Below, piece by piece: positions 29,632 through 35,326 of a stretch of 64,000 nt of DNA. Source of the stretch: Syntrophomonas sp. DTU019 (GTDB taxonomy: Bacteria; Bacillota; Syntrophomonadia; Syntrophomonadales; Syntrophomonadaceae). The DNA is taken from NCBI GenBank assembly GCA_913757435.1, contig CAJYDM010000001.1, positions 930,001 to 994,000 on the forward strand, given 5' to 3'. The notes beneath the pieces are model-generated. The model searched no databases. It had not been told where the DNA came from and was given only the letters and a program-made list of their open reading frames with translations. The stretch's first letter is position 1, and every line of letters begins with the position of its first letter. Both the position numbers and the translations under genes were made by a program.

Positions 29632-29647
29632 AGGCACGATTATTGCA
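29632..29647 (+). promoter_or_regulatory. Sigma-54 promoter of the hydrogenase-like regulator gene
   Basis: AGGCACGATTATTGCA matches the -24/-12 consensus TGGCACGNNNNTTGCW at all positions but the first, with GG and GC exactly 10 bases apart. The predicted start is near 29658, 27 bases before the gene, so the activator probably controls itself. The 29377-29631 stretch before it has no gene. Confidence 0.75.
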
Positions 29648-32381: not shown

Positions 32382-32387
32382 GATGTT

Positions 32388-32446
32388 ACAATTGTGCCAA
32401 ATGTGTAGCTTTGTTTACGCAAGTGTTCATTATTGAAACAATTGTG
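32388..32446 (+). promoter_or_regulatory. Two ACAATTGTG sites, candidate activator-binding sites
   Basis: ACAATTGTG occurs at 32388-32396 and 32438-32446, 50 bases apart, centred on the palindrome ACAATTGT. They lie 110-170 bases upstream of the sigma-54 promoter at 32557, the normal position of enhancer sites for such activators. Confidence 0.55.
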
Positions 32447-32496
32447 ATACAATATCGCGGACAGCATCATTTCACCTTTGTTGCTAAGAGACTTGA

Positions 32497-32521
32497 ACGC
32501 CCCAATTATGGGGCGTTTTTA
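32497..32521 (+). terminator. Terminator of the regulator gene
   Basis: ACGCCCC / GGGGCGT stem with 6-base loop AATTAT, then TTTTTATT. It isolates the following sigma-54 unit from the regulator transcript. Confidence 0.85.
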
Positions 32522-32556
32522 TTGTGACTCGTTCAAGGTGGGCTGCATTTATGAGT

Positions 32557-32573
32557 TGGCACACTAGTTGCAT
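32557..32573 (+). promoter_or_regulatory. Sigma-54 promoter
   Basis: TTGGCACACTAGTTGCAT carries TGGCAC-N5-TTGCA, an essentially perfect -24/-12 element. It faces away from the regulator gene; the predicted start is near 32583. Confidence 0.85.
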
Positions 32574-32582
32574 AATAAATGG

Positions 32583-32688
32583 TCATACGATTTAACCGGA
32601 TATTTTTATGTGCTAAAGATAACATGCCTACTTCTACGGGTGATCAGGGCGAACCTTCAAAATTCCCCCCTGAATCACCCGTTTTTTT
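32583..32688 (+). ncRNA. Candidate sigma-54-dependent small RNA, about 105 nt
   Basis: Runs from the predicted start of the sigma-54 promoter to a strong terminator: ACGGGTGAT-CAGGG pairs with CCCTG-A-ATCACCCGT (32636-32682), followed by seven T. No frame with a ribosome site fits inside. It is bounded on the left by the regulator's terminator, so it is an independent unit. The existence of the transcript is inferred. Confidence 0.6.
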
Positions 32689-32721: not shown

Positions 32722-32773
32722 AATTGGGAAATGTCCCTCATTATTGACAATCAGTGGATGTGTACAGTATACT
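32722..32773 (+). repeat. Left 52-bp target duplication of IS copy 1
   Basis: Identical to 34723-34774. It contains a complete promoter (TTGACA, 18 bases, TATACT) and ends exactly at the last base of the -10. Confidence 0.92.
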
Positions 32774-34722
32774 CCCGTCTTTGACACTTAGTGAAGAGAA
32801 AAAAGCTCGTAAACTCCTAAAACAAGGGGGTTGCGAGCTTTTCACGTGTTAGTAAAAAGTGAGTACTATTTGTCTAAGACTTAGTAGCTTTAAAAATTTT
32901 TTTCATCTGTCGCATGGGGAGAATCTGGTAGTCAGTACGGAAGCCAAACACATCATGAAGATTATCCGTGAAGTCCGTTCTCATATAGGTGGGGACGAAA
33001 CCCTCCCCTTTGACCTCATAGAAATTCATGTCACGCAGCCCCTGAACGATCTCACTGCAGGTGTATTGCTCACCTAACGTCTTCTTCAAGAGTCGGTAGA
33101 TCACCAGCGCGATAAAACATATAATAAAATGCGCCATTATCCTGTCATCGCGGCTAAGGTATACCGGTCTAGCCTTAAACTCGCTTTTCATGATCCTGAA
33201 GCACTCCTCAATCTGCCAGCGCCTCCTATTTACCGCAAGGATAGCAGCGGCGTCGCCGTCAAGGTTAGTGCAAACCGCGTAGAAACCATCAAAAGCCTCC
33301 TCTTTCTGGATGACAGAGTTATCGATTTCATATACCGCCTTGCTGGCAACCTCACCCTCAGGGGTAATGCTGGTTTTCTTGATAAAACGTTTGTAGTCGT
33401 TTTGGTTCACCTTCGTAAGTTTCCCCAAATTCGTGTTAAGGACTTTGCGAGCACGCTCAATTTGGGCGTTCCTGACCTTGCGTTGATAATCTTGGTACTT
33501 GAGCGAAAAAGACACAATAAGCTTCTGCTCCAGCCCATCCTCCACAATCCAACGCTCCTTGTAAAAAGTCTTTTCCATGTCTTTGTTTTCATCAAGCTTG
33601 TCCAGACTGTATACGGAGGTATCGCCCGGGAGGCGCCAGCCCTCAGGGCTTAATGCCCATTCTCTTAGGTGTTTCTTCAGCTTCTTGACCGACTGCGTAG
33701 TGATGAAAGCTCGCTCGCCCTGGTTGTTGAATTGACGGTTACTATTGGAAGCGAGCCCTGCATCGGTGCAGACGATGAACTTGGAGCAGTTAAAGTCAGA
33801 CAGTATTTTCTTCTCCAGCGGTTTTAGCGTCAGTTGCTCGTTAGTATTGCCTTTGCCAATATATACGGCTAAAGGCACCCCATCCCCATCCATGAAAAGC
33901 CCCATCTGGACAATGGGGTTAGGGCGGTGCTCTTTGGAGTAGCCGTATTGCTTGATGCCTGACTCCTGCTCAATTTCGAAGAAGTAATTGGTGCAGTCAT
34001 AGTACAGCACCCGCGTGTTCCGCTCTGACACAGCCAGGCTGTTGGAATAAAGAGACGCCTGGATAGAGTCAGCCTCTTTGGCAATTATCTCCAACGCACG
34101 GTAGATTTGGTGGAGATCAAACGATGGCTGTTCTATGAACCTTGAGGAAAGTTGGAATGTAGAAAGCTTAGAGGAAGGGTAGATAATCCTGGCGTAGATA
34201 AGTCTGGATAGGATGGAGTCCAGGTCGTAAGAAAACTTGTACTTCTTAGAGATAGCTCTGCACATTTTATCAAGCTTCAGTTCGTGATATATCTTCTGCA
34301 AAAAGAGGTATCCGCCGTTGAATAAGCGCTGCTGGCCTTTATCAATAGTCTTGATCGGGGAATACTTAACTAGGACATCGCGTTTGTTAAGCTTTTCCTC
34401 CTCGTTAAGTTTGGCAATATACTCCTTGGCCCACTCGATCGGGTCTTGCCCGCCCAATTTTTTCTTAAGTTCATCATATGTACCAAGCTTTTCAACAATC
34501 TTGGAAGAATGAACGCCATTGACATAGGTGGACTTTATGACATAAAGCGAAGCAGCATTTTTTGACCTAGAAATTTTTAGCCGCATAGAAAACACCTCCC
34601 ATCCCTTATATTATGACACATTACTCAAAAGTACTCAATACAAAAGTGTAACAATTGACAAAAAAATTAGCCCTTTTCGGGCTTCTCTAACCTTTTTCTA
34701 CTATTCAACTGTCAAAGACCCG
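32774..34722 (-). mobile_element. IS1634-like insertion sequence, copy 1 (1949 bp)
   Basis: Ends CCCGTCTTTGACA and (inverted) CGGGTCTTTGACA. One transposase gene on the minus strand, with a terminator hairpin AAAAGCTCG/CGAGCTTTT near the left end (about 32799-32844). Flanked by a 52-bp direct duplication. IS1634/IS1549 relatives are known for long, variable target duplications. It differs from the copy at 61560 by only a few bases. Confidence 0.93.
32874..34586 (-). CDS. IS1634-family transposase
   Basis: 570 residues from the ATG at 34586, which has GGGAGG 8 bases upstream; a GTG 9 bases earlier is less likely. DDE-type domain: YYDCTNYFFEIE, then CTDAGLAS, then the C-terminal RRRWQIEECFRIMKSEF with the YREK-like region of the IS4 superfamily. 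The protein is identical to that of the second copy, so both are probably recent and intact. Confidence 0.93.
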   Translation of the reverse strand: MRLKISRSKNAASLYVIKSTYVNGVHSSKIVEKLGTYDELKKKLGGQDPIEWAKEYIAKLNEEEKLNKRDVLVKYSPIKTIDKGQQRLFNGGYLFLQKIYHELKLDKMCRAISKKYKFSYDLDSILSRLIYARIIYPSSKLSTFQLSSRFIEQPSFDLHQIYRALEIIAKEADSIQASLYSNSLAVSERNTRVLYYDCTNYFFEIEQESGIKQYGYSKEHRPNPIVQMGLFMDGDGVPLAVYIGKGNTNEQLTLKPLEKKILSDFNCSKFIVCTDAGLASNSNRQFNNQGERAFITTQSVKKLKKHLREWALSPEGWRLPGDTSVYSLDKLDENKDMEKTFYKERWIVEDGLEQKLIVSFSLKYQDYQRKVRNAQIERARKVLNTNLGKLTKVNQNDYKRFIKKTSITPEGEVASKAVYEIDNSVIQKEEAFDGFYAVCTNLDGDAAAILAVNRRRWQIEECFRIMKSEFKARPVYLSRDDRIMAHFIICFIALVIYRLLKKTLGEQYTCSEIVQGLRDMNFYEVKGEGFVPTYMRTDFTDNLHDVFGFRTDYQILPMRQMKKIFKATKS

Positions 34723-34774
34723 AATTGGGAAATGTCCCTCATTATTGACAATCAGTGGATGTGTACAGTATACT
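34723..34774 (+). repeat. Right 52-bp target duplication of IS copy 1, carrying a promoter
   Basis: Second copy of the 52-bp duplication. The promoter TTGACA (34745-34750), spacer 18, TATACT (34769-34774) is kept here and faces the GreA/GreB-like gene, so the insertion did not separate that gene from its promoter. Confidence 0.9.
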
Positions 34775-34864: not shown

Positions 34865-35326
34865 ATGGCCCAGCGTCTAATCAAAGCGGAAGACTATGAG
34901 AGAATTCTGGCTCATCTGGTAGCAGTTGAGGAGACCCGGAGCCAATGGACACACGACCAGTTTCCGCTGTTATCGCCGCAGCGCGAAAATATGGTTCAGC
35001 TTTTGGACAACTATGTAAATCAGTTGGAAGCCCTGATGAAAAACGCCTTACGCTCATCTCGGGCAGGCGATGAATTACCCTTTGTAATTATGGGAAGCCA
35101 GGTTGAGGTCTTAAACCCTCCCAGCGGAAAAAGGCAAACCTTTGTGATTGTACCTTTCTATGAACAACGGGTCAATAACAACCACATCTCCATACTCTCA
35201 CCGCTTGGCAGCGCTTTGCTGCTTAAGGCTAAAGGGGACTTGGTGACCATAAACGCCCCCCGGGGAGATATAGACTGGGAGGTTATTTCTATTAAATACC
35301 CAGATATATCCTCGCCTGGAGATTAA
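34865..35326 (+). CDS. GreA/GreB-family protein (transcript cleavage factor-like)
   Basis: 153 residues with a clear C-terminal GreA/GreB FKBP-like domain: MGSQVEVLNP then ISILSPLGSALLLKAKGDLV and a basic/aromatic end. The N-terminal 70 residues are helical but lack the classic acidic coiled-coil tip, so it may be an Rnk- or Gre-like RNA polymerase secondary-channel factor rather than true GreA. A strong GGAGGAGG precedes the ATG. The promoter is intact in the IS duplication. Confidence 0.8.
   Translation: MAQRLIKAEDYERILAHLVAVEETRSQWTHDQFPLLSPQRENMVQLLDNYVNQLEALMKNALRSSRAGDELPFVIMGSQVEVLNPPSGKRQTFVIVPFYEQRVNNNHISILSPLGSALLLKAKGDLVTINAPRGDIDWEVISIKYPDISSPGD

Follow-up and report, generated by a model that had tools for sequence, protein, structure and literature searches.

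Introduction

Syntrophic fatty-acid degraders need low hydrogen pressure. In Syntrophomonas wolfei, the sensor kinase Swol_1040 uses a module of ferredoxin and Fe-only hydrogenase-like parts as its sensor, and regulators of the Fe-hydrogenase type and of the PAS/sigma-54 type are named without targets in the available text of the same source (PMC4324140). In Clostridiales, the domains Fer4, Fe_hyd_lg_C and FeS are listed among the regulatory domains of the activators, 15 of the 39 activator groups, PrdR among them, use TGT-N10-12-ACA sites, and the enhancers usually stand 100-250 bp ahead of the promoter, often in multiple copies; the available text gives no regulon for the hydrogenase-like activator (PMC6615313). 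A different kind of sigma-54 target is represented by the Qrr small RNAs, which are sigma-54-dependent (PMC10162802).

Here we describe a locus in a Syntrophomonas genome (G000, with C1 and C7 among its contigs), analysed in a window of 64,000 nucleotides, by which we mean the whole stretch of DNA under study. Computation brings out a palindromic motif that is conserved, spaced in whole helical turns and co-occurs with an activator and its likely target genes, together with a -24/-12 promoter and a conserved RNA element (Table 1). On these sequence grounds we are confident that the segment 32384-32451 acts as an enhancer of the promoter at 32557 and that its half-site palindromes are bound by the adjacent activator. 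Because they are conserved across relatives and repeated before likely target genes, the sites are very probably docking sites of this activator.

Table 1. Features of the activator locus, in window coordinates.
Feature	Position	Strand	Basis and remarks
Sigma-54 activator, 898 aa	29685..32381	+	Fer4, Fe_hyd_lg_C, FeS, PAS, AAA+ (GAFTGA) and HTH_8 by Pfam
Site A' TGTTACAATTGTGCCAAA	32384..32401	none	Centred on word 1; 13.6 bits, rank 1 of 63,983; register unconserved in congeners
Site A TGTGCCAAATGTGTAGCT	32393..32410	none	11.4 bits, rank 3; register kept in congeners; resembles second-locus site G000:C1:40828-40845
Site B TGAAACAATTGTGATACA	32434..32451	none	Contains word 2 and is centred on it; 12.0 bits, rank 2; compare G000:C1:40869-40886
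GC hairpin and T-run, probably terminating the activator transcript	32497..32522	+	Sequence; similar hairpin in both aligned congeners
-24/-12 sigma-54 promoter TGGCACACTAGTTGC	32557..32571	+	Sequence; conserved in congeners; start near 32583 inferred
Predicted sigma-54-driven RNA, ~105 nt	32583..32688	+	Conserved element 32625-32688; terminator hairpin 32636-32682

Results

Palindromic sites between activator and promoter

An earlier note had pointed to two identical 9-base words, 50 bases apart, standing directly after the activator gene and at enhancer distance upstream of a sigma-54 promoter, and had proposed them as binding sites of the activator. The geography is confirmed: the word ACAATTGTG lies at 32388-32396 (word 1) and 32438-32446 (word 2), both on the + strand and with no other copy in the window, between the end of the activator stop codon and the promoter, and the centres of sites A', A and B fall 164, 155 and 114 bp before the TGGC of the latter. 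Comparative evidence also strongly supports the proposed place, role and likely protein; what has to be replaced is the unit, which appears to be an 18-bp palindrome and not the 9-mer.

This palindrome was derived by palindrome-constrained EM of width 18. The input was the initial 130 bases of each of 13 orthologous regions from other genera, a set that excludes L075 and L076, as near-duplicates, and L086, as N-rich. The result, TGTnACAaattTGTnACA, i.e., TGT-N12-ACA, has the form TGTnACA-N4-TGTnACA, in which the half-site TGTnACA is itself a palindrome; in many orthologous regions such half-sites run ~11 bp apart. The log-likelihood reached 159.3 for the real set (200 starts) and at most 89.0 in 20 shuffled sets (60 starts each). 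The motif used to score the window was learned solely from other genera, and in this held-out test the three sites of Table 1 take the top ranks among 63,983 positions, a result far beyond chance. The earlier note would have given up its sites if the word were frequent at random positions in the genome or not conserved near homologues; by that test the larger motif stands. The best site pairs of the congeners, likewise held out, are 41 and 40 bp apart. The outer TGT and ACA are never both intact in the three sites of the window, which read TGT..AAA, TGT..GCT and TGA..ACA.

Across 32 loci, the spacing of the best pair at each locus falls into classes of about 30, 41 and 51 bp (29-32, 40-43 and 50-52 bp; 23 and 58 are the exceptions), which correspond to whole helical turns (R = 0.82 for a period of 10.2 bp, a value that none of 5000 random sets reached). 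Of these loci, 12 had also trained the motif and several are related; the window entered with its 50-bp pair, its conserved register giving 41. Sites on the same face of the helix would suit the needs of a looping activator. When two mismatches were allowed, the motif was not enriched genome-wide (84 matches as against 87 for a reversed control), so lone matches without a promoter carry no meaning.

In the alignment of the window with UBA4922 and UBA4807, the invariant positions are TGT..C.AA..TGT..C in site A and TGA..CA..T..GATACA in site B, 41 bp apart, and site A shares only TGTG with word 1. Because these invariants fall in the 32393 register and not in the 5' half of the 32384 register, we read word 1 as the midpoint of a register that scores high without being conserved and that overlaps a conserved one of lower score, while word 2, on this alignment, is the centre of a conserved site. 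To set word 1 aside as hardly relevant is ruled out by the 13.6-bit site centred on it. Indeed, the protein might occupy the first cluster in the 32384-32401 register, still as an 18-bp unit but with both positions of the earlier note correct, a variant compatible with the explanation preferred here and one to which we give somewhat less than an even chance: this register has the top score of the window and its 50 bp to site B come near five helical turns, but the two congeners, which conserve 32393-32410, do not keep its 5' half-site TGTTACA, and it is the 32393-32410 type that recurs at the second locus described below with the common 41-bp spacing.

Orthologous loci and target genes

We collected 30 activator loci (28 named loci, L024 and the window), 19 of which carry a -24/-12 element at most 350 bp after the stop codon; the other 11 have no downstream promoter, four of them having just 0-212 bp of sequence left. 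At several promoter-bearing loci the order is activator stop, palindromes, hairpin terminator, promoter and gene, and in most genera with the promoter the next gene encodes a protein of ~190 aa marked by CPR..(E/D)VY and LN..L.YFY..GGP. The cultured relative S. zehnderi (L082) also has the protein version. At L064 and L067, small ORFs that seem unrelated when judged by eye follow the promoter. The target-gene homologues of other genera sit directly downstream of the activator; in the window genome the target gene (~195 aa) is found at C1:41111, about 0.92 Mb from the activator, preceded by the sites TGTGCCATTGTTGTATCA and TGAGACAGCTATGATACA, 41 bp apart, and by a -24/-12 promoter, TGGCACGCATATTGCT, 118 bp after this pair (C1:40828-41011 for sites and promoter together).

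Target-gene copies that are not adjacent to the activator were scored against shuffles. In activator-bearing genomes, 15 of 17 such copies have a site pair at p <= 0.04 (13 at p <= 0.004 and two more at 0.02-0.04), and the two without sites also lack a recognisable promoter; in activator-less genomes, the same scoring finds a site pair in none of five copies. L192 and L162 (too little sequence) and L186 (132 bp) were left out, some of the non-adjacent copies share a contig with the activator at a distance of 3-8 kb, and the counts are not independent because paralogous target genes may have inherited their sites by duplication. Outside this scoring, further pairs 40 bp apart with promoters occur at L066, L069 and L083, although L069 and L191 agree in sites and spacing and may be one locus. 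Across 63 genomes of the order, activator and target gene occur together in 21, the activator only in 6, the target only in 4 and neither in 32 (Fisher 7.6e-8, without correction for phylogeny). The downstream DNA was read in three of the six activator-only genomes (G001, G018 and G033), and there the activator is not followed by the promoter either.

The target protein matches no family in Pfam or NCBIfam. Its AlphaFold model is a helical bundle (pLDDT 80.7), whose best Z of 8.7 against ferritin-like chains is below the trust level for helical bundles and whose Foldseek matches are weak (E >= 0.43); so middling a likeness is no evidence of function.

Other promoters in the genome

Motif matches of at least 8.5 bits lie within 260 bp of four of the 15 exact -24/-12 elements in the window genome, where 0.06 would be expected by chance: those of the window, of the target gene, at C7:17861 and at C1:122398. 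The remaining 11 have no motif, nor has any of the 15 further one-mismatch elements examined. The window itself holds additional sigma-54-like elements of the form TGGCAT-N5-TTGC at 505 (+), 20774 (-), 21104 (+) and 24072 (-), without a strong motif match nearby. The element at C7:17861 precedes an ORF of 120 aa (L141 1083-1445, -; G000:C7) that shares LNEKLAYFYSHGGP (LN..L.YFY..GGP) with the target family and has three motif matches in front besides the -24/-12 element; a similar fragment in G003:C47 has both.

The promoter at C1:122398 lies about 290 bp before nuoA. Among 20 loci surveyed upstream of nuoA, sites and promoter occur together in two, the window genome (L197) and G003 (L200), at 290-350 bp or more before the gene, and the sites of G003 are the stronger ones (15.2 and 16.5 bits). 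They are absent in G001, and in the other genera of the survey none are found with a promoter; the congener G002 contributes just 134 bp of upstream sequence. With just two of 20 loci, and none in other genera, the membership of the nuo operon in the regulon is tentative.

These distributions bear on the protein that binds the sites. A different regulator, whether another HTH_8 activator or a repressor, could recognise the palindromes and the adjacency of the activator be incidental, since the genome encodes further activators that match its C-terminal part and could bind similar sequences, and TGT-N10-12-ACA sites are common to many activator groups (PMC6615313). We consider this improbable, as sites and target genes track the activator across genomes, the promoter adjoins the activator in the 19 loci counted above and the motif is missing at most of the exact -24/-12 elements.

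The nine-base word

The expected number of ACAATTGTG copies in the window is 0.40, and two were reached in 8 of 100 shuffles. An identical 9-mer pair of any kind at most 60 bp apart arose in 190 of 5000 shuffles of the 175-bp stop-to-promoter interval, and the window contains 183 such pairs of all kinds. The 3.23-Mb genome has 22 copies of the word (12 forward and 10 reverse), about the ~20 expected by chance when scaled from the window, and none of 18 orthologous stop-to-promoter regions contains it, the 8-mer ACAATTGT being present once in the region of one congener; by the test set in the earlier note, which the larger motif passes, the 9-mer fails. Although no site in the window scores higher than the two palindromes centred on the words, and 50 bp is near the 51-bp spacing class, that the word itself, at its exact positions, is the recognised unit is hardly credible, and the 9-mer is rejected on its chance-level count, its absence from the orthologous regions and the invariance of just four of nine positions in each word across three congeners, while the ATTG within word 2 falls in the variable spacer, where the second locus has GCTA.

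A predicted short RNA

Each of the four genomes of the genus has a single copy of the element 32625-32688 (63/63 identical in G003), and the other 57 of the 61 genomes have no comparable match (best E there 0.011); in the congener alignments the flanking DNA is about half identical or less. Its RNA fold is stable (z -4.80), and a 1-nt deletion in the UBA4807 element breaks any conserved reading frame, which rules out a peptide reading. The features seen, namely an own -24/-12 promoter, an intrinsic terminator, a conserved RNA and no conserved ORF, are those of a sigma-54-dependent small RNA, and the best reading is that in this genus the promoter of the window yields a short conserved RNA and not a protein, which should begin near 32583 and end at the hairpin. 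Rfam returns nothing at gathering level; the best of its three weak matches (E 0.0041, 29.8 bits against a threshold of 60) is on the other strand.

The DTU019 MAG (L060) is an exception: its hairpin stands right behind the activator stop, the full sites and the promoter are missing, and a search of the genome did not turn up the target gene. In the window, an IS1634-family insertion element with inverted ends (32774-34722; transposase 32874-34595), whose end has five genomic copies, lies between the RNA and a GreA-like gene and is flanked by a 52-bp direct repeat (32722-32773 and 34723-34774). The repeat holds a promoter-like TTGACA...TATACT ahead of that gene, which encodes a GreA/GreB C-terminal-domain protein of 153 aa (34865-35326), below all GreA cut-offs, and adjoins a glutamate dehydrogenase gene.

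The activator

Pfam assigns PF00158 and PF02954 to the activator, and GAFTGA is visible in an alignment of 15 sequences. Its closest named relatives are in the Syntrophomonas sp. MAGs UBA4807 (86%), UBA4922 (80%) and DTU019 (78%), by best segment, and S. zehnderi encodes a homologue at 64%; residues 1-450 are 57-62% identical to many relatives of ~700 aa. The best NCBIfam model is PrdR (NF041552), matched over residues 434-893 with 411 bits, below the curated cut-off of 795. The [FeFe]-hydrogenase-type sensory domain has the four cysteines expected to hold an H-cluster cubane (C147, C194, C305 and C309), invariant in 15/15 aligned sequences, which we take to belong to the L1-L3 motifs of [FeFe]-hydrogenase. 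Several of these sequences read TPCP where the usual hydrogenase motif is TSCCP, and hydrogenase-type catalysis by the N-terminal part is doubtful because the first cysteine of this motif is replaced.

An imperfect -24/-12 element, AGGCACGATTATTGC, lies at 29632-29646, 53 bp before the activator start, with the counterpart CGGCA(C/T)GATTATTGC at the same place in two congeners, and sigma-54 may thus control the activator gene as well.

Discussion

In the mechanism that we propose, 32384-32451 would form an upstream activating sequence of two clusters of TGTnACA-type half-sites, in which the conserved pair 32393-32410 and 32434-32451, four helical turns apart, is joined by the overlapping palindrome 32384-32401. 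The HTH_8 domain of the activator would bind these palindromes, and its AAA+ ring, through GAFTGA, would reach the sigma-54 polymerase across a DNA loop of ~115-165 bp, while the N-terminal ferredoxin, [FeFe]-hydrogenase-like and PAS part would set the timing of activation, presumably in response to redox state or H2; expression from the promoter is likewise a prediction. The promoter would drive the gene of the ~190-aa helical protein in most of the related genera that have it; in this genus it would drive the short conserved RNA, the protein gene lying elsewhere with sites and a promoter of its own. More speculative, and rather unlikely as a whole, is a circuit in which, in these presumably syntrophic bacteria, the activator commands a dedicated ~105-nt RNA in place of the protein of its relatives, the separate protein gene and complex I (nuo), i.e., an H2- or redox-responsive RNA circuit for syntrophic energy metabolism.

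A defined predicted site, a few candidate target promoters and a regulon open to testing can thereby be assigned to a hydrogenase-like activator that was uncharacterised. For hydrogen sensing by syntrophic fatty-acid degraders, the sites make the promoter response to H2 or redox state, the production of the RNA and the role of the ~190-aa protein amenable to experiment. In the literature searched, supplementary files lying outside its scope, we found neither a regulon of the activator nor its target family or RNA target. The regulon is new and the class of site is known, since Clostridiales groups use TGT-N10-12-ACA sites and PrdR belongs there.

Comparison with known systems

GlmY/GlmZ and CrcZ are sigma-54-dependent small RNAs; with these and with Qrr, the predicted RNA would have in common that a short non-coding RNA is placed under an enhancer-binding protein, a likeness of arrangement with no sequence relation established. 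Swol_1040 has a similar sensor module, but its output is a histidine kinase and here it is a sigma-54 activator (PMC4324140). PrdR, the activator of proline reductase, provides the nearest NCBIfam model (NF041552), although the match misses the ferredoxin and hydrogenase-like N-terminus. The outer spacer of the NifA site is 10, whereas here it is 12, and the sensor domains and targets differ from those of NifA and FhlA. The upstream activating sequences of these two likewise consist of TGT/ACA-type inverted repeats for Fis-type HTH activators (PMC6615313).

The closest likeness in site architecture is with the Clostridiales TGT-N10-12-ACA enhancers, into whose class the window sites fit by distance, multiplicity and a cognate activator with GAFTGA and HTH_8, the individual sites being imperfect. 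Both have inverted TGT/ACA elements separated by 12 bp, more than one site per promoter, a distance of 100-250 bp to the -24/-12 element and an HTH_8 activator with GAFTGA; in contrast to those enhancers, the sites described here belong to relatives of Syntrophomonas, have inner bases of their own and are built of half-sites arrayed in whole-turn spacing (PMC6615313).
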